Origin: Fimbriimonas sp.
Lineage (GTDB): Bacteria; Armatimonadota; Fimbriimonadia; Fimbriimonadales; Fimbriimonadaceae
Reading direction: 5' to 3'
Length of the DNA stretch: 33,151 bases
Assembly (NCBI GenBank): GCA_031292555.1
Contig: JARLGV010000109.1
Span: 1 to 33,151 of the forward strand
The notes below the pieces were generated by a model that worked only from the letters and a program-made list of their open reading frames with translations, did not search any database and had not been told where the DNA came from. The translations under genes and the position numbers were made by a program. Positions 1 to 10,171 of this stretch are shown in pieces; the stretch's first letter is position 1; each line of letters starts with the position of its first letter.

Positions 1-85
1 AACCGTATTTCAACGGTCGATTTCTCAACTTGGATATCAACCGACGAAACTTCCCAATCGGCAGTCAAACCCAAAAGAACGCGGA

Positions 86-3000
86 ATGCATCGGTGTCAT
101 GCACGCAACAAGTTTAGAAGAAGCCACGAGATTCTTCATAGTCCCTTTCTTGTCGCCTTGATGATAGCGTATGTACCTTCTTCGAATGGACTTAATGCGT
201 TTTTTGAAGTGATCTTAGGCGCATGGCATCGCCCACATACAATGCCAAGCAACCACTACACGAGCCTCCCATTGATCGCGTTTTTGGGCCACCATCCTGG
301 ACGAGACGTGGGGCGCGGCATTTGGTCAAAGGAAGCGTTAGCCAACGCTCAGGCGAGTTCCATAGGCACATATGCAAGCACCGATCCCGAAGACATGCTC
401 GTTGGGCACACAGTCGCAGTGTCTCCTGCCCCCGGGCCCCCACTTCCCTGGGAAGGCGCATTGAGCAATGGGTCCTGGCAGGGACGGATTTTGGTTCCAG
501 ATCATTCGATCGTTAACACTGCAAATGGAGATCGCCTGTTCGTACTCAAACTCTTGGGATGGAAGTCACGTGGAATCAACGTAGATTTCACGCTCTACCA
601 TAACAGCGAGACCAATTTCTCGGATGAATTCGGTTACGGCTGGTCTTCCAGCACCGACGTTTATATCAATAATCTAACTTCCACGCCTACACTTCACTGG
701 GCTACTGGGCTGAGCATTCCCTACTCCGGAACTGGGCCAACATACACGCCCCCTGCCGGGTACTACGATCAGATGGTTCATAACGGAGACGGCACGTGGA
801 CCGTGACGGCCAAGAACGGCACTAAATACGAGTTCAACGGCGCTGGTTTTTGCACGGCCATTCAAGACCTCGACGGGAACCAGCTCACGTTCGTCCTGAA
901 CAGCTCAAACTACTGTACGCAGATAATCGATCCCACTGGAAAATCGATCTCGATCAATCTAGATTCGAGCAATCATGTGTCAAGCATCGTCGATGCACTC
1001 AATCGTCGATGGTCTTTCGAACTAGACGGCAATGGTGACCTTTCGCGGGTCAACTGGCCGATCCAGTCTGACGGGATTGTCTACAACGACAGTTTCACCT
1101 ACTCGCGCAACAGGATCGCGTCGCATACGGACAAAAGGGGATGCGTCTGGCAAGCATCCTATAACTCCGATGGGAGTATTGCGACGAGCATAGACCCACT
1201 AGGGCATTCTGTCACTTATGGTTACAGCACATCAGCCACAGTCGTCGTCGATCCAATGAGCAACTCACTTACCGACAACTATTCGAATGGGATCTTGGCA
1301 AGTCGCAAGGATCAAGCCGGGTTCAGCGTCTCCTATAGGCTCCGTGATTCGAACTACAACATCCTAACTCTGGTCGACAAGAACGGCAGCACGTGGCATG
1401 GTACCTATGATCCTCACGGAAATCTCCTGAGCATTACTGACCCTTTGTCCCATGTAACAACCTGGACCTATAATTCGTTGGCGGAGGAGTTGACGCAGAC
1501 GGATGCCTTGGCGAATGTCCAGACATACACTTACAGTCCGTCTGGCCACCTATTGACGACCACCGATCCCTTATCCCATACCTTACGGGTCAACACTTAC
1601 GATCAATTCGGTGAGTTAATGTCCCAAAGTGATGCACTAGGAAATACGATACGCCTAACCTATGACACAAGCGGAAACTGCACAACGATTGAAGATCCCC
1701 TCAGCAACACGACCGAACTTACCTTCGATGCCCTGAACCGCCTTATCAGTATCCAGGACACGCTGGGAGACGACTATTCAGTTTCATACGATCCGTGGGA
1801 TCGGGAGATCACCTTCACGAATCCGGACGGTTCAGCCACTACCAGGAGCTACGATACTGAGGGTGACCTGCTCTCCGAAACTGATGAGAACTCCCACACA
1901 GCTTCCTTCACGTATGACACTGCCCAACGGCTGCTAACGGCAACTAACGCCCGGTCGGACACCGAAGCCTACATTTACGATCCGTGCAATAACAAGATAG
2001 GGGTGACCGATGGAAACGGCCACTTCCGATCCTACGCATATACGAACCGGGGTGAGCTGGCAGCAATGACCCTGGCAGACGGTGCAACGGAAGCATGGGC
2101 ATACGATGGGAACGGCAATACGACGGTTTACGAGAACCCAATTCGGCAATCGATATTGTACTCCTATGACTTCGCCAACCGTCCAACGGGAGCCACCTAC
2201 CCCACAGGGCCAGGTACATCGTATACATACGATAATTCGGACCGCCTGTTAACGATGTCAGACTCCACGGGCATAACGGCATGGACCTACGACCAGGCAT
2301 CTCGTGTCACAAATCTCAACACCCCTCAGGGAAGTATAGGTTACACGTACGACAACGCTGGAAATCGCCTAACCATGTCTGACGTGGCTGGGACAACAAG
2401 CTATGCCTATGACGCCGATTCCAATGTGGTGTCGATAAAGAACCCGTTTTCCGAATCCACCAGTTTTGGGTACGACGCTGACGGCAGACTGATCAAAGAG
2501 ACATTCGCCTCAGGTGCCTATGATCAATTTGGTTACGATAACCGAGATCGAACCGTCTCTTTAACTCATAGGAATTCTGCCGGCTCCATACTGAGCCAAG
2601 ATAGCTATTCTTATGACGCTGCATCGAACATCATTAGCAAAACAGTCGATACGCTGACGACGAACTACACATATGACCCTGTTGATCAGCTGCTCTCCGA
2701 GAACAATGCAGGCTACTCGGCTTCATACAGCTACGATTCGAACGGAAATCGAACATCCTCGAGCATTCAGGGTGTGACGTATGCTTACATCTATGACAGT
2801 GGCGACAAGTTAACTTCTATAAAGGCCGGTTCCTCGACCATCAAGAGCTACCTATACGATGCGGCAGGACGAACAACGTCCGTTACGACTAGTTCGGGGA
2901 CAACGTACCTGTCCTACGACTATGAAGACAGGGTAGTTGGGATCACGTACCCCAACTCGACGACCAACTCCTTCACATATAACGGACTGGATACCCGGAT

Positions 3001-3997
3001 TGCGAAGGCAGACTCGAGTGGTATGCACAACTATCGGCGGGATGGAATCGGCGTCACTGACCCCGTCCTATCCGATGGGACTATCACATTCACACCTGGT
3101 ATTTCAGAGCGGCTAGGAACGACGACGATCTTCGATCACTCTGACCAACTCGGAAGCTTCACGCGGCAGACCAATTCTGTCCAAAGCACCACTGCAACTC
3201 GCACGTTCGACGCGTTCGGAAACCTGCTATCGACAACTGGACAGCCTCAAAGCACCTTCGGGTTCGCTGGCACGAGTGGCTACCAGCAAGATACGGATAG
3301 TGGCTTAATGCTTCTCGGGCACCGGTTTTACGATCCAGCATCGGGCCGCTTCATAACACGGGATTCCGCTAAGGATGGGCGCAATTGGTATGCGTATTGT
3401 TACAACAACCCAGTTGCCCATGTTGACCCGGATGGCCATATCGTACCCCTGGTTGTCATCGCCATTTTGGCTATTGGAATTCTTGCTGCGGGCACTGCAG
3501 AGGCACCCACTTCGGGCCATTCTCATAGCAACGCTGGCCAAAACGGAGCCAGAAAGATCCAAGTCGCGCTCGACGTTACCGGCGCAGTCTCCGGCATCGG
3601 CGATCTTATAGGCGGCATCGCCGGCATAATAGAAGGGAGCGGAGCAGCAATTGAAGCTGAAGCTGGAGGTGCAGCGGAAGAAGTCGGTTCAGCTTCAAGC
3701 TCCGAAGCGGGCGTCTACAAGGGCGCGATCGAGAAGAATCATAAGTTGCCTCGAGCCATCAAGAAGCAACTCCGGAAAGAGCAATACCCTAGGAAACCAG
3801 ATGCAAGAGTGGGTCTGCCAAGAGACTGGCATCAGGGACCTGAGGGTATTCACGGAGGAAACGGGTACAAGCACCCTGGAGGCCACTACAATAATTGGTG
3901 GCATGACAGTATCGACCAGCACGGAGGATTTCATGAGATCCCACAGAAGAAAGTCCAGGAGCTTTACGACGAGATTGGTGACCTACTAGGATGGTAG
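86..3997 (+). CDS. RHS/YD-repeat protein with C-terminal toxin-like domain (5' end unresolved)
   Basis: Dozens of YD repeats (pattern YDxxGxxxxxxDxxG) fill roughly residues 215-1015. The RHS-associated core lies at about 1020-1117 and includes DQLGS, GHRFYDPASGRFITRD and a closing HVDPDG. In this family the repeats form a shell that encloses the C-terminal domain, which is a toxin that varies between strains. Here the tail (1118-1303) has a hydrophobic stretch just after the core, a Gly/Ala-rich segment and a compact His/Trp-rich end: H1219, W1248-H1249, H1256, GGHYNNWWH at 1265-1273. That end resembles His-dependent nuclease-type toxin tips, but I cannot assign a named family. No clear signal peptide is visible. 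The frame is open back to base 2, so the ATG at 86 may not be the true start and the gene may be 5'-truncated by the window. Base composition is clearly more AT-rich than the rest of the window. The next gene overlaps its stop. Confidence 0.85.
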   Translation: MHRCHARNKFRRSHEILHSPFLVALMIAYVPSSNGLNAFFEVILGAWHRPHTMPSNHYTSLPLIAFLGHHPGRDVGRGIWSKEALANAQASSIGTYASTDPEDMLVGHTVAVSPAPGPPLPWEGALSNGSWQGRILVPDHSIVNTANGDRLFVLKLLGWKSRGINVDFTLYHNSETNFSDEFGYGWSSSTDVYINNLTSTPTLHWATGLSIPYSGTGPTYTPPAGYYDQMVHNGDGTWTVTAKNGTKYEFNGAGFCTAIQDLDGNQLTFVLNSSNYCTQIIDPTGKSISINLDSSNHVSSIVDALNRRWSFELDGNGDLSRVNWPIQSDGIVYNDSFTYSRNRIASHTDKRGCVWQASYNSDGSIATSIDPLGHSVTYGYSTSATVVVDPMSNSLTDNYSNGILASRKDQAGFSVSYRLRDSNYNILTLVDKNGSTWHGTYDPHGNLLSITDPLSHVTTWTYNSLAEELTQTDALANVQTYTYSPSGHLLTTTDPLSHTLRVNTYDQFGELMSQSDALGNTIRLTYDTSGNCTTIEDPLSNTTELTFDALNRLISIQDTLGDDYSVSYDPWDREITFTNPDGSATTRSYDTEGDLLSETDENSHTASFTYDTAQRLLTATNARSDTEAYIYDPCNNKIGVTDGNGHFRSYAYTNRGELAAMTLADGATEAWAYDGNGNTTVYENPIRQSILYSYDFANRPTGATYPTGPGTSYTYDNSDRLLTMSDSTGITAWTYDQASRVTNLNTPQGSIGYTYDNAGNRLTMSDVAGTTSYAYDADSNVVSIKNPFSESTSFGYDADGRLIKETFASGAYDQFGYDNRDRTVSLTHRNSAGSILSQDSYSYDAASNIISKTVDTLTTNYTYDPVDQLLSENNAGYSASYSYDSNGNRTSSSIQGVTYAYIYDSGDKLTSIKAGSSTIKSYLYDAAGRTTSVTTSSGTTYLSYDYEDRVVGITYPNSTTNSFTYNGLDTRIAKADSSGMHNYRRDGIGVTDPVLSDGTITFTPGISERLGTTTIFDHSDQLGSFTRQTNSVQSTTATRTFDAFGNLLSTTGQPQSTFGFAGTSGYQQDTDSGLMLLGHRFYDPASGRFITRDSAKDGRNWYAYCYNNPVAHVDPDGHIVPLVVIAILAIGILAAGTAEAPTSGHSHSNAGQNGARKIQVALDVTGAVSGIGDLIGGIAGIIEGSGAAIEAEAGGAAEEVGSASSSEAGVYKGAIEKNHKLPRAIKKQLRKEQYPRKPDARVGLPRDWHQGPEGIHGGNGYKHPGGHYNNWWHDSIDQHGGFHEIPQKKVQELYDEIGDLLGW

Positions 3998-4644
3998 GCA
4001 TCTACCGAGTAATGGCAGAGCCCGTCGGATACCGATCCTATGGTTTGTTTACGCCGGCGCCATCCAAGTTACGAGGTGATCGGAGTTGCCTATCTTGTGG
4101 AAGAACTACACGCGAGAACTATGGCAAGCCTACACGAGTCCGCTTTGAGGGAGGTAGTTGCTCAGACTTTTACGCTGCAATAGGCAATCTGCTCGTCGCC
4201 CGTTCCGTTGGGGCATCAATTCAATCGCAGTTTCCAGAGGTTGGGCTGGACGAAATCGAGATCATCAATCGGCAAGGGCGTGATCGATTTCTCAAGAGGT
4301 GCGAGCCTGTGGTGGCGCTCGCTCCGAGGAAGAACGTTAAGTCTTTTTTGGAGGGGTCCACGCTTGTTCTGACTGAGATCTGCACCGTGTGCAAAAAGCC
4401 AGACCTAACGTTTCATTGGCTAGAAAGATCGGTTACGTTTCCAGATGACTGGGGCGAACTGGACTACCGCATCGAACCAAATCCTGATGGGGGAGAGATC
4501 CTTCTTTCGTCTGAAGTGGTTGGCGGGGATAATCTCTTTTACTTCTTCGACGGCTTCCTATTCTGTACCGATCAATTTCGAGAGTTCGTGCTCGGTCACA
4601 AGTGGTCCAACATCATGTTCCTGAAGTGCGGACGGATTGTGTGA
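3991..4644 (+). CDS. putative immunity protein, double-CxxC(G) (SitI6-like) family
   Basis: This 217-residue protein has no signal peptide and is presumably cytoplasmic. It carries CLSCG at residues 33-37 and CTVCKK at 131-136. This spacing of two CxxC knuckles, followed by a C-terminal half ending in a short F/T-x-Q-F-x-E-F-V segment and a final strand, matches the layout I recall for the myxobacterial double-CXXCG family (SitI6-type immunity proteins). The second knuckle lacks the usual glycine. The start overlaps the RHS stop by 7 bases (ATGGTAG), so the two genes are probably translationally coupled, as toxin and immunity genes usually are. An alternative start is ATG at 4012, which would remove the overlap. 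By position its role would be to neutralise the RHS C-terminal domain; this is an inference from position and motif. A plain zinc-ribbon protein of other function is the main alternative. Confidence 0.65.
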   Translation: MVGIYRVMAEPVGYRSYGLFTPAPSKLRGDRSCLSCGRTTRENYGKPTRVRFEGGSCSDFYAAIGNLLVARSVGASIQSQFPEVGLDEIEIINRQGRDRFLKRCEPVVALAPRKNVKSFLEGSTLVLTEICTVCKKPDLTFHWLERSVTFPDDWGELDYRIEPNPDGGEILLSSEVVGGDNLFYFFDGFLFCTDQFREFVLGHKWSNIMFLKCGRIV

Positions 4645-4720
4645 GGCAGGGCAGTTCGCGTTGAGATCCGTCGGTCGGCGGACAGGTTTGTGCTGCCATG
4701 GCCAACTTGGGATGCGAAGG

Positions 4721-4920
4721 CTGGGATTCTGTGCTAGTCAGTTAACGGCAGATTCTGTGTTAAGAGCTGCGATGGATCCACAGGGCGGCGGCGAAGCGGA
4801 TGGGTGATCCGGGCGAAGGGGCCATTGCGTTGGAGTAGCCCATACACAACCTCTCCGAGGTTGGATTCGTCGCGGCCACGGTCCCATGGTTGCCTTTAGG
4901 GCTAGCGTACAGAATCCCGG
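4721..4920. repeat. inverted-repeat-bounded ~200 bp segment, possible dispersed element
   Basis: The left end reads ctgggattctgtgctag (4721-4737). The right end (4901-4920), read on the opposite strand, is ccgggattctgtacgctagc. The 10 bases gggattctgt match exactly, followed by gctag after a 2-base offset. A further copy of gattctgtg lies inside at 4751-4759. There is no transposase. The arrangement resembles a small non-autonomous element or a REP-like structured repeat; copy number elsewhere is unknown. Confidence 0.4.
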
Positions 4921-4945
4921 GATTGGAGAGGTTGGCGATCATGCG

Positions 4946-5104
4946 CCCGCAACCCGCAACCCGCAAACCCGCAAACCCGCAAACCCGCAAACCCGCAAAC
5001 CCGCAACCCGCAAACCCGCAAACCCGCAAACCCGCAACCCGCAAACCCGCAAACCCGCAAACCCGCAAACCCGCAACCCGCAACCCGCAACCCGCAACCC
5101 GCAA
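4946..5104. repeat. tandem array of 21 units, cccgcaa (7 bp) and cccgcaaa (8 bp)
   Basis: Counting units gives nine 7-mers and twelve 8-mers in the order 7,7,8x5,7,8x3,7,8x4,7x5, totalling exactly 159 bases. The minus strand reads GGG-TTTGC or GGG-TTGC repeatedly, so it offers 21 G3 tracts separated by 4-5 base loops, a pattern compatible with G-quadruplexes. The array ends 30 bases before the GTG start of the hexosaminidase gene. The mix of unit lengths suggests slippage and unequal exchange. It is not CRISPR: there are no spacers. Confidence 0.95.
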
Positions 5105-5119
5105 CCCGGGCAAACATGA

Positions 5120-5134: not shown

Positions 5135-7387
5135 GTGAACGTCTGTCCATTGCTACTTGCCCTCCTGCCAACTACGCCGGCTCAGCCTGGGGCGCCGGCG
5201 ATCTTGCCGAAGCCGGTGCACCTCGCGGTTGGCGCGGGGAGTCCGTTCGAAATCACTCGTAATACCGTCCTCGTCGCCCCTTCCGACCTAGAGGGGGCGC
5301 GGCTACTTCAGACCATGCTTGCGACCGGGGCCGGGTTGCACCTCCCAACCGCTCACCGGACGAACTCTCACGGCTGGATTCGATTCCAGAAGGCGCCGGC
5401 CGGGACGATCAAGGCGGAGGGATACACCCTCCACGTCACCCACGACGGGATCGCCGTCCACTACGCCGACCAGGGTGGATCGGTCAACGCGGTCGAGACG
5501 CTCCGCCAACTGTTGCCGCCCGCCATCGAAGCATCGCACCCGTCTGGTACGAGCCACTGGACGGTTCCCGCCGTAGACGTGGAGGATGCGCCGCGCTTCC
5601 CATGGCGCGGCATGCACCTGGACGTGTCTCGGCATTTCTTCCCCGCTGCATTCATCAAGAAGTACATCGACTACCTCGCCCTCATGAAGATGAACGTCTT
5701 CCATTGGCACCTGGTGGACGATGGAGGGTGGCGGCTGCAGATCGACAAGTACCCGAAGCTCACCGAGGTCGGCGCCTGGCGATATGGCATCACCACCGAC
5801 TGGGATCAGAGCCGTCTTCGATTCGATCCGAGCAGCGGCTTGCCGAAGTACGGCGGGTTCTACACAAAGGCGGAGGTCCGCGACATCGTCAAGTACGCGG
5901 CCGCACGCAATGTCACGATCGTCCCCGAGATCGAGATGCCTGGTCACGCGATGCCGGTCTTCGCCGCTTACCCTGAGTTAGGATGCAAGAACCAGCCGAA
6001 GGCCGACCTGACCGGCCAACCGGACACCAACGTTTACTGTGCGGGAAGCGAAAGCACCTACCGGTTCATCGAGAACGTACTGGACGAAGTCATGGCGCTC
6101 TTCCCCTCCAAGTGGATCCACATCGGAGGAGATGAGGTCGATAAGCGGTTCTGGAAGGCGTGCCCGGTCTGCCAGGACCGGATCAAGAAAGAGGGGTTGA
6201 AGAACGAGGAGGAGTTACAGAGCTACTTTGTGCGGCGCATCGACAAATACCTTGCCTCCAAGGGCCGACGTCTGATCGGATGGGATGAGATCCTCGAAGG
6301 GGGCCTCGCCAAGGGCGCCACCGTCATGTCTTGGCGGGGGATCGACGGCGGAATCGCCGCCGCAAAGGCCGGGCACGACGTCGTGATGTCGCCCACGTCC
6401 CACGCGTATTTCGATGCCTCAAACACTTCGCAGACCACCGAACACGTCTACACCTTCGACCCGGTCCCTCCGGCGCTGAACGCGACCGAGGCGAAGCACG
6501 TCCTAGGCGGCCAAGCAAATGTGTGGACGGAATGGATCCCAACGACCCAGCGGGTGGAGTACATGATCTTCCCGCGAATCGCGGCGATGTCGGAAGTGCT
6601 CTGGTCTCCGAAAGAGGGTAGAGATGTGAACGAGTTTCTTAGCCGCCTTTCGTCGATCTATGAACGCCTCGACCGACTCGGCGCGAACTACTACCTCCCG
6701 GCTCCACGGGTGAAGACCAATGCCCTTCTCTTCATCGATCACGCGCAAGTTTCAGTGATCGAGGAGAAAAAGATGCCCGGTTCGATCCGATACACCCTGG
6801 ACGGATCGGCCCCGACTGCGAAGTCGAAACTCTACGCAGGGCCGATCACGATCGATCGGAAAGGCACCGTTACGTTTGCTTTCGTCAACCAGGCCGGACA
6901 CGCGGGATCGACTACGACGGTCGAATGCGCACCCAGTGACCCAGGCGTGCCGAGCAATCTGATTCGCGGCTGGAACGTCGCCTACTACGAAGGCTCGTGG
7001 ACCCAAACGCCGGATTATTCGAAGCTCACTCCGATCAAGGAAGCAGTTTCGACCACCGTAGATCTCGCTCAGCGTGCACGCGAGGATAACTTCGCACTTC
7101 ACTTCGCCGGATACTTCAAGGCAGGAACGGAGGGACTCTATCGATTCGCCCTCACGAGCGACGACGGATCCTGGCTCAAGATCGGCGGACTGTCGGTCGT
7201 GAACAACGACGGCACCCATCCTCCGACGACCCGCGAAGGCTCGATTTGGCTGCCCAGAGGCTTCTTCCCGATCGAAGTGGGTTACTTCCAGGCAGCAGAA
7301 GCAAAATCCCTTTCCCTGTCGGTTCAGGCGCCGGGCGCGAACTCCATTGGCCCGGCCGACCCTTTCATCCTTCACGCGGGAAGTTAA
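5135..7387 (+). CDS. secreted beta-N-acetylhexosaminidase, GH20, with C-terminal PA14 domain
   Basis: Removes terminal N-acetylhexosamine from chitin, peptidoglycan or glycan oligomers by substrate-assisted catalysis. An N-terminal hydrophobic leader (NVCPLLLALLPTTPAQ) indicates export. A GH20b-type domain precedes the barrel, which begins at FPWRGMHLDVSRHFFP. Barrel motifs are MNVFHWHLVDDGGWR, EIEMPGHA, the catalytic pair D333-E334 in HIGGDE, LIGWDEILEGG, and the Trp-containing GGQANVWTEWI. After the barrel come a chitobiase-C-like module (IRYTLDGSAPT) and a PA14 module (from GWNVAYYEGSW; LTSDDGSWLKIGG) that probably binds carbohydrate. At 750 residues it has the usual multidomain bacterial length. 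The start is GTG at 5135; no ATG in frame would keep the leader. It is monocistronic, with the tandem array upstream. Which sugar it acts on cannot be read from the sequence. Confidence 0.93.
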   Translation: MNVCPLLLALLPTTPAQPGAPAILPKPVHLAVGAGSPFEITRNTVLVAPSDLEGARLLQTMLATGAGLHLPTAHRTNSHGWIRFQKAPAGTIKAEGYTLHVTHDGIAVHYADQGGSVNAVETLRQLLPPAIEASHPSGTSHWTVPAVDVEDAPRFPWRGMHLDVSRHFFPAAFIKKYIDYLALMKMNVFHWHLVDDGGWRLQIDKYPKLTEVGAWRYGITTDWDQSRLRFDPSSGLPKYGGFYTKAEVRDIVKYAAARNVTIVPEIEMPGHAMPVFAAYPELGCKNQPKADLTGQPDTNVYCAGSESTYRFIENVLDEVMALFPSKWIHIGGDEVDKRFWKACPVCQDRIKKEGLKNEEELQSYFVRRIDKYLASKGRRLIGWDEILEGGLAKGATVMSWRGIDGGIAAAKAGHDVVMSPTSHAYFDASNTSQTTEHVYTFDPVPPALNATEAKHVLGGQANVWTEWIPTTQRVEYMIFPRIAAMSEVLWSPKEGRDVNEFLSRLSSIYERLDRLGANYYLPAPRVKTNALLFIDHAQVSVIEEKKMPGSIRYTLDGSAPTAKSKLYAGPITIDRKGTVTFAFVNQAGHAGSTTTVECAPSDPGVPSNLIRGWNVAYYEGSWTQTPDYSKLTPIKEAVSTTVDLAQRAREDNFALHFAGYFKAGTEGLYRFALTSDDGSWLKIGGLSVVNNDGTHPPTTREGSIWLPRGFFPIEVGYFQAAEAKSLSLSVQAPGANSIGPADPFILHAGS

Positions 7388-7497
7388 TCGGCCCGACACG
7401 TGAACTCATTCGTACCAGATGGGCCTATTAACTTAGACTCATCCGGCACGTACCCTACCGCTTTCCGAACGCCCTAGCCGCTCGTGCGGGATCGTGG

Positions 7498-7503
7498 TAG
7501 GAT
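7498..7503 (+). promoter_or_regulatory. candidate -10 box (TAGGAT) for the lutABC operon
   Basis: TAGGAT lies 7 bases before an in-frame GTG at 7511. If this is the -10, the transcript would begin near that GTG and the ATG at 7502 would lie upstream of the message start. No good -35 is seen. Confidence 0.3.
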
Positions 7504-8287
7504 GCTTGTCGTGCCCCATTCGGCGTCTACACCTGCCCAGGCACAGGATTCGCTTTCAGCCGCACCTCGAAATAGGGTGCGGCTAATGCTGACATGCCTC
7601 TGCGACGCCTTCTACGGCGAGGTAGGGATCGCCACAGTAAAAGTGCTGGAGCACGCCGGATGCGGGGTTTTGTTCGACCAAGATCAAACATGCTGCGGTC
7701 AGCCCCCGTTCAACTCGGGCGACTGGTCTGCTGCCCGGCTCGCCGCCGGCCACACGATGCGCACGCTGCTCAGCCACCCCGAGCCGGTCGTCACTCCGAG
7801 CGCGTCGTGCGCAGCGATGATTCGCGAATGTTATCCAATTCTTTACACCGGCATGGCCCATCCGAAAGTGTATGAACTCAGCGAGTTCCTCGTTAAGCAA
7901 CTCAATATCGCGACCTGGTCCGTCACAGCCAAGGAGCTCCCACCCAAAGTTCGTGTCGCCTACCACTTCTCGTGCCACGGCCGGGGGATTGGACTCAGGA
8001 ACGAGCAAAGGCAGTTGATCGAGAGCCTCCCTTGGGTCGACCTCGTGCCGTTCGACAATTCGGATCAGTGCTGCGGTTTTGGCGGCGCATTCTCCGCAAC
8101 CCACGGCTCTATCTCGGCCGGGATCGGGATGGAAAAGCTACGCGCGATTCAGGACGCTGGGGCCGAGGAGATTGTCGGCGGAGACATGGGCTGCCTCATG
8201 CAACTGAGTGGACTCATCAAACGGAACGGGATCTCTCTCAAGACCCGCCACTTCTCGCAACTGCTTGCGGAGGCGATCGGCGAATGA
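7502..8287 (+). CDS. lutA: LutA-like (Fe-S)-binding lactate oxidation subunit
   Basis: Belongs to the cysteine-rich CCG-domain family (LutA/YkgE), one of three subunits of the iron-sulfur, non-flavin L-lactate dehydrogenase that oxidises L-lactate to pyruvate in the cytoplasm. The first CCG unit runs from LTCLCDAFYG through DQTCCGQPPFNSG to SASCAAM. The second has HFSCHGRG and SDQCCGFGG and ends near GGDMGCLMQ. Length is about 260 residues, against about 240 for the family. The start is uncertain: GTG 7484, ATG 7502 and GTG 7511 are in frame, and homology begins only at RVRLMLTCL, so 7502 or 7511 is likeliest. The stop overlaps lutB by four bases (ATGA), and lutC follows. Confidence 0.87.
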   Translation: MLVVPHSASTPAQAQDSLSAAPRNRVRLMLTCLCDAFYGEVGIATVKVLEHAGCGVLFDQDQTCCGQPPFNSGDWSAARLAAGHTMRTLLSHPEPVVTPSASCAAMIRECYPILYTGMAHPKVYELSEFLVKQLNIATWSVTAKELPPKVRVAYHFSCHGRGIGLRNEQRQLIESLPWVDLVPFDNSDQCCGFGGAFSATHGSISAGIGMEKLRAIQDAGAEEIVGGDMGCLMQLSGLIKRNGISLKTRHFSQLLAEAIGE

Positions 8288-9648
8288 AGCGCCCATCAGT
8301 CGAGCAGTTCGCGCGAACCGTCTCGCCCGAGACGGTAGCAAGCGTCCGTGCCACCTCCACTCGAATGTCTAGCGCGCGGAAATCGGCTCTATTCGAGGCG
8401 TTCGACGATCTCGACGCCACTCGAACCCAGGCGGCACAGATCAAGGATTACGTCCTGGACAACCTGAAGACGCTGCTAACCCAGTTCGAGCTCAAGTGCC
8501 GACTGAACGGGGTTCGAGTGCTGTGGGCGTCCGATGCCGCGTCGGCCAACCGCCGAATCCTCGAAATCTGTCATAAGGCGGCACCGGACGGTGGGATCAT
8601 CGTAAAGGCCAAGTCGATGGCCACCGAAGAGATCCACCTAAACAAGCATCTGGCGAAAGCGGGCTTTGAGGTGGTGGAAACCGATCTCGGCGAGTACGTC
8701 GTTCAGATCGACGACGACATGCCGAGCCACATCGTCGCGCCGATCATCCACAAGAGCCGCAGCGAAGTTGGAAAGAGCTTCGAACGAGAGGGCCTCGGGC
8801 CATACACCGATGACCCGTCCGAGTTGGCGATGCGAGCCCGGGCTCACCTGCGGGACAAGTTCCGAGCCGCGAAGATCGGCATCAGCGGGGTGAATTTCGG
8901 CATCGCAGAGAGCGGCCGCATCGTACTCGTGGAAAACGAAGGCAACAGCCGACTGAGCACGACCGCTCCCGACGTCCACATCGCGGTGATGGGTATCGAG
9001 AAGCTGCTTCCCGGAGAATCAGACTTGGCGCTCTTCCTTCGGCTCCTTGCCGGCTCGGCAACCGGCCAACGCATAACAACCTACACTCACCTGATCTCCG
9101 GACCGAGACGCAAGGACGAAGGAGATGGCCCCAAAGAGGTCCATCTGATCCTTCTGGACAATGGGCGGAGCAAGATACTGAACGGTCCCTACCGGGAGAT
9201 CCTGCGGTGCATTCGTTGCGGGGCCTGCCTCAACATCTGTCCTGTGTACCGACAGGCAAGCGGCCATGCGTACAAGAGCCCCTATTCCGGTCCCGTCGGG
9301 GCCGTCCTCGGACCTGCCCTTGGCGGCGTTGAGAAGCGCCCGGACCTTGCCAAAGCGTCCACTCTGTGCGGCGAGTGTGAGGAGGTATGCCCGGTAAAGA
9401 TTCCGATTCCCAAGCTTCTGCTGAACCTACGCGACGAGGCAGTGCGCAAGGGAGTCGTCAAGGATGCAATTCCTTGGGGAACGTTCTCAGTCGGAACCAC
9501 GAGCGGTTTTCGCTGGCGGATGGGTCTCAAACTGCTCCCGATGGCCGGGTTGGTGAAACATCCTATGAAGGCGGCTTGGGAGGAGTTCAAGGAACTGCCC
9601 ACAAAGGAGGGGCGTGACTTCCGAGGGTGGTGGCGTGGAAGATCGTGA
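8284..9648 (+). CDS. lutB: LutB-like iron-sulfur protein with LUD domain
   Basis: Central electron-transfer subunit of the LutABC lactate-oxidising complex. The N-terminal two thirds is a LUD domain (KAKSMATEEIHLN, GPYTDDPSELAMRAR, GISGVNFGIAESG). The C-terminal part holds two 4Fe-4S motifs, CIRCGACLNICPVYRQ and CGECEEVCPVKIPIPK, and ends with a Trp-rich tail. Length is 454 residues, close to the family norm of about 470. The start is the ATG that overlaps the lutA stop (ATGA at 8284-8287); longer readings upstream would run through lutA and are not supported. The 3' end overlaps lutC by 35 bases, so the three genes are probably translated together. Confidence 0.92.
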   Translation: MKRPSVEQFARTVSPETVASVRATSTRMSSARKSALFEAFDDLDATRTQAAQIKDYVLDNLKTLLTQFELKCRLNGVRVLWASDAASANRRILEICHKAAPDGGIIVKAKSMATEEIHLNKHLAKAGFEVVETDLGEYVVQIDDDMPSHIVAPIIHKSRSEVGKSFEREGLGPYTDDPSELAMRARAHLRDKFRAAKIGISGVNFGIAESGRIVLVENEGNSRLSTTAPDVHIAVMGIEKLLPGESDLALFLRLLAGSATGQRITTYTHLISGPRRKDEGDGPKEVHLILLDNGRSKILNGPYREILRCIRCGACLNICPVYRQASGHAYKSPYSGPVGAVLGPALGGVEKRPDLAKASTLCGECEEVCPVKIPIPKLLLNLRDEAVRKGVVKDAIPWGTFSVGTTSGFRWRMGLKLLPMAGLVKHPMKAAWEEFKELPTKEGRDFRGWWRGRS

Positions 9649-10171
9649 CGAGATCCTTGGCCGCTTGAGTCATTCAGGACGCAAGACCCGCCCGCCGGAT
9701 GCGGCGACTCCTCTACCGGTCTTGAGTGTCGATGCGCTCTGGGATCTTTTCGCGCGTCGCCTTGAGAGCCTAGGTGGGCGCATCGGAACCCTCGACGATC
9801 TGCCGATCGTGCTTTCAAGACCTCACGTTATCGACATCGAGACGGCCGCTCGGCTCGGGCGTGTCCCCGGTGGAGATCCGATATGGGAGGCGGAGGTAGG
9901 CGTTACGACCGCCGACCTCGCCATTGCCGAGACCGGCACGATCGTTCTGTCGACCGGACTTGGCAAGCCGCGATTGGCAAGCCTCACACCCAGTTTGCAC
10001 GTCGCCATCGTGCCAAGGAGCCGGATCGTCGCAACGATGGCAGAAGCCATGAGCCGGCTTACCGACCGGACGACGGTGTTTGTGACCGGTCCAAGCCGCA
10101 CTGCCGACATCGAAGGCGTGATCGTACGCGGAGTCCACGGCCCAGGCGACGTGCTCGTGATTCCCGTCTAG
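9614..10171 (+). CDS. lutC: LutC-like LUD-domain protein
   Basis: Third subunit of the lactate-utilisation complex and a small LUD-domain protein related to the LutB N-terminal half. Recognisable segments are VGVTTADLAIAETGTIVLST and ITxVTGPSRTADIEG-like VTGPSRTADIEGVIVRGVHGPG, the typical C-terminal signature. At 185 residues it is shorter than the roughly 240-residue Bacillus protein; the N-terminal part is reduced. The start is GTG at 9614, preceded by aaaggagg at 9603-9610; an alternative GTG at 9635 has gagggtgg upstream. Both keep the domain. It overlaps lutB by 35 bases at the first start. The stop shares the palindrome ctag with the stop of the convergent gene on the other strand. Confidence 0.88.
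   Translation: MTSEGGGVEDRDEILGRLSHSGRKTRPPDAATPLPVLSVDALWDLFARRLESLGGRIGTLDDLPIVLSRPHVIDIETAARLGRVPGGDPIWEAEVGVTTADLAIAETGTIVLSTGLGKPRLASLTPSLHVAIVPRSRIVATMAEAMSRLTDRTTVFVTGPSRTADIEGVIVRGVHGPGDVLVIPV

Follow-up and report, generated by a model that had tools for sequence, protein, structure and literature searches.

A probable RHS-borne toxin tail and its overlapping double-CxxC gene in Fimbriimonas, a likely divergent cousin of the SitA6/SitI6 pair of Myxococcus

The SitA6 toxins of myxobacteria are small lipoproteins which carry an N-terminal escort domain and are moved between cells by TraAB outer-membrane exchange. These lipoprotein toxins (PF09533, TIGR02269) adjoin double_CXXCG proteins (PF09535, TIGR02264), a family placed in the clan of Imm11 (Weltzer et al., 2025, PMC12077181). 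In Myxococcus fulvus, for example, the DUF2380 protein pMF1.20 has DNA-cleaving activity in vitro, which its binding partner pMF1.19 slows down (PMC6091211). Homologs of this pair were stated in a 2016 genome paper to occur in myxobacteria only (PMC4700575), and a PF09535-like immunity protein has been reported in a polymorphic toxin locus of a Bodo saltans endosymbiont (PMC8163844). Other relevant systems are the RHS toxins with HNH/EndoVII tails, such as Tox-AHH, Tox-WHH, and Tox-SHH, in which an RHS carrier and a DPxG boundary precede a variable nuclease tail, an overlapping immunity gene follows, and several tails may occur per genome (Zhang et al., 2012, PMC3482391). The available part of the text of that survey names neither DUF2380, nor the Gmx double-CXXCG family, nor Armatimonadetes. 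Likewise, AHH nucleases occur with Imm11 or Imm43, so that here too an HNH-type toxin is paired with a member of the double_CXXCG Pfam clan as its immunity protein (PMC12077181).

The stretch of DNA analysed here (the window, 33,151 nucleotides) is a whole contig, G000:C33, of a Fimbriimonas genome of 6.46 Mb from the phylum Armatimonadota. It begins with an RHS repeat protein of 1303 aa (86..3997, plus strand, as are all features of the pair given below), the frame of which is open to the contig edge, and its start codon is uncertain. The protein matches RHS_repeat PF05593 in 20 stretches (E 5.7e-71, Pfam) as well as RHS_core NF041261 and the YD repeats of NCBIfam, and its Rhs_assc_core (TIGR03696, 3206..3439, E 7.5e-18 to 7.8e-19) ends at residue 1118, just past VDPDG. 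RHS/YD repeats and an Rhs_assc_core are thus followed by a DPxG-type boundary, a conserved core is joined to a variable C-terminal tail with differing tails within one genome, and the putative immunity gene lies directly downstream with a 7-base overlap and a recurrent pairing. All of these are the hallmarks of RHS polymorphic toxins, and the window shares them with the HNH/EndoVII group mentioned above.

The tail after VDPDG is 186 aa in length and passes from a hydrophobic stretch through a Gly/Ala-rich linker into about 90 residues that are rich in His and Trp. The pre-toxin linker (3440..3709, IVPLVVIAILAIGILAAGT) is strongly hydrophobic at its start, with the hydropathy maximum of the whole RHS protein at residues 1119-1137. 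The predicted toxin domain (3710..3994), HNH-like and of the DUF2380 type as judged from homology to a related tail in genome G104 and from hhalign, contains N1218-H1219-xx-P, H1249, H1256, and GGHYNNWW, and then a C-terminal helix. A first-pass annotation, made from the letters of the window alone, had described a 186-residue tail past DPDG with H1219, H1249, H1256, and GGHYNNWWH, every element of which is present in the sequence; the annotation did not mention that H1219 stands second in an HH pair, the first residue of which is Asn here. The codons AAT CAT (AATCAT, 3737..3742) encode N1218-H1219, and in an alignment of 20 tails the window reads NHKLP, with HH in the 19 others. In other words, the window tail has all of the DUF2380/SitA6 motif HHxxP...H...H...G.[WY]N..W except the first His. 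In the colicin-type HNH nucleases the first His position of the HH pair is a metal ligand, and by analogy the residue at the position of N1218 would be a metal ligand and H1219 the general base. The nuclease activity of the window copy is uncertain because the first His of the pair is replaced by Asn, a change that could make the enzyme weaker or inactive.

The next gene (3991..4644) encodes the candidate immunity protein, a double-CxxC protein of 217 aa. Its start overlaps the toxin stop by 7 bases (3991..3997), and it contains a first knuckle CLSC (in CLSCG, C33/C36, 4087..4098) and a second knuckle CTVC (in CTVCKK, C131/C134, 4381..4392), so that both the overlap and the CLSCG and CTVCKK motifs reported in the first-pass annotation are borne out. 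One CxxC is N-terminal and the other is central, as in the SitI6/double_CXXCG proteins, and CTVC is invariant among the three closest toxin-immunity pairs. The overlap suggests translational coupling of the two genes; the pairs of G104 and G136 overlap by 4 bases (GTGA/ATGA).

Direct searches with the window sequences gave little. The tail has no significant match in Pfam, NCBIfam, PADLOC, or PHROGs, and the SitA6 models PF09533/TIGR02269 do not match it directly at E<=10. Similarly, the 217-aa protein has no significant match in the same four libraries, PF09535 and TIGR02264 included, and TIGR02264 matches nothing anywhere in the genome. As opposed to the AHH pairs, the window immunity protein has no direct match to Imm11 or Imm43 at E<=10. 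A scan of genome contigs and a phage search with the window immunity protein, as well as a plasmid search with the immunity protein of G151, returned no match. A search of the PDB by sequence found nothing credible. Structure prediction from three-row alignments gave pLDDT 64 for the toxin, with no credible fold match and no HNH structure in the PDB, and pLDDT 30 for the immunity protein; neither model was usable.

The relationship to SitA6 and SitI6 emerges by way of relatives. When the window tail was searched against 291 Armatimonadota genomes, a 45% identical tail (E 7.9e-14) came up in G104 and a weaker match in G151, and behind each lies an overlapping gene that has CxxC motifs. A three-row profile found others in G136, G221, G073, and G191 and, near threshold, in G176 and G164, with a CxxC gene directly behind most of them; a scan of contigs with the toxin alignment returned the G104 and G151 contigs only. 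PF09533 (DUF2380) matches several of these tails (G221 1.2e-16, G164 8.6e-13, G073 1.8e-8, G104 4.5e-4) and is present in 22 of the 291 genomes, 14 of them above the curated cut-off. The tails have in common the pattern HHxxP ... H ... (I/L)H ... GG(Y/W)N..W of the HNH-type nuclease family DUF2380/PF09533. In hhalign, a joint set of the window tail and those of G104, G151, and G136 aligns to the DUF2380-like set with a probability of 98.3% (E 1.1e-14), and the window tail alone does so with E 1.8e-6; reversed and shuffled controls gave nothing comparable (best shuffle E 0.013).

The immunity proteins were compared in the same way with a SitI6 set made up of two Myxococcus plasmid proteins, the Armatimonadota hits of PF09535, and genes behind DUF2380 tails. 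The immunity set aligns to it over nearly the full length with E 5.4e-18 (2.7e-14 in a repeat with a slightly different command) and to the PF09535-only members with E 1.5e-11, with probabilities of 97-99% for the SitI6/double_CXXCG family across comparisons; the reversed controls gave E>0.1 and 20 shuffles E>0.4. The window protein alone reaches the SitI6 profile with E 1.4e-3 in an implausible alignment, which is not significant, and taken by themselves the two Myxococcus proteins are barely linked to the set; the chain to SitI6 thus depends on intermediates. It is through their relatives that a remote homology of the two partners with SitA6 and SitI6 of Myxococcus is supported. The SitI6-type likeness proposed in the first-pass annotation stands as a profile-profile relationship and falls as a direct match, the suggested comparison with TIGR02264 being negative.

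The pairing itself is recurrent. The tail homologs terminate RHS or HINT-bearing proteins in G104, G151, G136, G221, G191, G164, and other genomes, and PF09533 and PF09535 matches adjoin in G055 and in G094, the latter from the genus of the window. A homolog of the window immunity protein (E 2e-10) lies in G139 one gene behind the end of an RHS gene. The search with this protein at E<=0.01 missed the immunity genes of G104 and G151, the assignment of which rests on gene position and alignment. The co-occurrence was counted over the 18 toxin loci, picked by the toxin alone, in which the downstream gene could be read. Several weak matches of the searches (L007-L009, L015-L021, L035-L037) were discarded because they are interrupted by stop codons or seem unrelated, and G009 is represented by the pair in L067 instead of that in L010. 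The gene directly downstream of the tail has at least two CxxC in 12 of the 18 loci, one in four, and none in two, namely G138 and G191, where the gene resembles the immunity genes of G195. Of 126 background ORFs of 180-320 aa taken from the retrieved loci, 8 (6%) have at least two CxxC and 17 at least one, which gives Fisher p values of 1.6e-8 for two or more and 2e-10 for one or more. Toxin and immunity distances across the pairs show a weak, marginal correlation (Mantel rho 0.17, p 0.046). The combination of toxin and CxxC gene thus recurs in many Armatimonadota genomes, and the window pair is no lone curiosity: it belongs, as a divergent member, to a set that is scattered over the phylum. 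In G195 (L006 1492-2872, G195:C37), two tandem immunity homologs without an intact CxxC, found by the search with the window immunity protein, lie with no toxin in the 3.5 kb read, which would be expected of extra immunity genes. In G136 (L089 9714-13904, G136:C9), three partial RHS cassettes with differing C-termini are arrayed, the first of which has a DUF2380-like toxin and a CxxC gene.

The window pair shares with SitA6/SitI6, such as pMF1.20/pMF1.19, the motif order HHxxP...H...H...G.WN..W, a two-CxxC immunity gene directly downstream, and remote homology of both partners. It differs in that the toxin domain sits at the end of an RHS protein of 1303 aa that has no lipobox, neither sequence reaches any curated cut-off, and NH takes the place of HH in the toxin. 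With neither a lipoprotein carrier nor a direct model match, the window toxin is not a SitA6 in the strict sense; it probably acts like one on an RHS carrier. The reading preferred with strong confidence is that the window encodes an RHS-borne polymorphic nuclease toxin together with its cognate immunity protein, and that the pair is a diverged relative of SitAI6 mounted on another carrier. The RHS protein would serve as the carrier of a small HNH/His-Me-type nuclease domain related to the SitA6/DUF2380 toxins, and the overlapping and probably translationally coupled gene would supply a cytoplasmic immunity protein of the SitI6/double_CXXCG superfamily. Homology to pMF1.20 and pMF1.19 (PMC6091211) makes it most likely that the tail cuts DNA and that the CxxC protein inhibits it. 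The two knuckles are probably zinc-binding and would maintain a fold with which the protein binds and blocks the nuclease; the producer would be protected, and a neighbor that received the tail without the cognate immunity protein would suffer DNA cutting.

The Asn of the window tail bears directly on a different account, in which the pair is degenerate: the tail would be nuclease-dead through the His-to-Asn change, and the immunity gene would be kept only against kin with an active version. The window is indeed alone among the 20 aligned tails in lacking the first His of HH, at a metal-site position. However, apart from this residue the motif is preserved, the reading frame is complete, and the overlapping immunity gene is intact. 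Variation at other motif positions is also seen in the family (the G094 tail is without the Pro), and Asp or Asn serves as a metal ligand in other His-Me nucleases. This account is rather doubtful, though the most serious of the competing ones.

Far less credit is given to the two accounts that deny the relationship of one partner or the other. If the tail were a non-nuclease toxin or a structural C-terminus with a coincidental His/Trp motif, the lack of a direct Pfam match and of an HNH structure match in the PDB for the toxin model would be understandable, but the motif aligns column by column with the DUF2380 tails via G104, the profile E of about 1e-14 stands well apart from the null controls, and the G164 member also weakly reaches an AHH HNH/EndoVII model (E 0.012); this account is very improbable. 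CxxC pairs are common in zinc ribbons, and the window protein alone has no family match, so that the downstream gene might be pictured as an unrelated zinc-ribbon protein, for example a regulator, which overlaps the toxin gene by chance. Such genes, however, recur directly after homologous tails in many genera, and the tandem copies in G195 and the profile link to SitI6 argue against chance as well, which leaves this picture equally improbable. The preferred reading remains that of an RHS-borne nuclease toxin with its immunity protein. The first-pass annotation had named the lack of both homology and co-occurrence as the outcome that would speak against its proposal; what was found is a SitI6 profile link and recurrent pairing, and its claim, that an RHS toxin is paired with a SitI6-type immunity gene in an organism other than a myxobacterium, proves right in substance.

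The weapon is of a known kind, and what is new is its carrier, its phylum, and its branch of sequence. Relatives of a myxobacterial kin-discrimination pair scattered over Armatimonadota on RHS proteins point to carrier swapping. The divergent pairs could be used to study how HNH nucleases are neutralised by double-CxxC proteins, and functional names are suggested for genes which current libraries leave blank. A broader and more tentative possibility, which is not favored at present, is that a SitAI6-type module has spread phylum-wide on RHS carriers, moving between lipoprotein/outer-membrane-exchange and Sec-exported RHS delivery. The branch of the window has a natural Asn at the metal site, and its immunity protein reaches no database cut-off; this branch would then form a subfamily of its own in which the active site is altered.

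With regard to delivery, a candidate Sec signal peptide was read by eye at about residues 7-38 of the RHS protein (RNKFRRSHEILHSPFLVALMIAYVPSSNGLNA, 104..199), subject to the uncertain start codon. FLVALMIAYVP at residue 21 is among the most hydrophobic stretches of the protein, and the putative signal peptide is without a lipobox Cys, there being no Cys after it. Sec-like signal peptides are also found on the RHS proteins of the relatives in G094 and G151. Delivery by a T6SS was set aside as no sheath gene VipB/TssC (PF05943) was found in the assembly, which is rated 100% complete. Export by Sec, followed by a further step toward the neighbor, is the best guess because of the signal peptides of the relatives, the possible one of the window, and the lack of a T6SS sheath gene.

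The genome has six RHS core matches, five of them above the cut-off. A second RHS tail, on G000:C127 (L048 4665-5456, minus strand), is a WHH/colicin-DNase-type nuclease (E 6.3e-14), and a SUKH-1 (SMI1/KNR4) gene follows it closely (L048 4114-4587, minus strand, E 2.9e-7). Several RHS cores with differing tails are as expected of a polymorphic toxin repertoire. On G000:C13 (L047 2-745 and 1934-2632), two RHS cassettes about 1.2 kb apart have near-identical core ends but differ in their hydrophobic tails; they resemble displaced orphan modules.

The RHS-immunity block (window 1-5000) has a G+C content of about 52% against about 60% in the rest of the contig, which is consistent with lateral acquisition, and the step lies near a repeat array. 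This tandem array, between the immunity gene and the next gene (4946-5108), consists of 21.5 copies of CCCGCAAA-type units of 7-8 bases and is telomere-like in look. Beyond it, as read by eye from the translations, are a hexosaminidase-like protein with GH20 motifs (5135-7387) and a LutA/LutB/LutC-like lactate-utilisation cluster (7484-10171).
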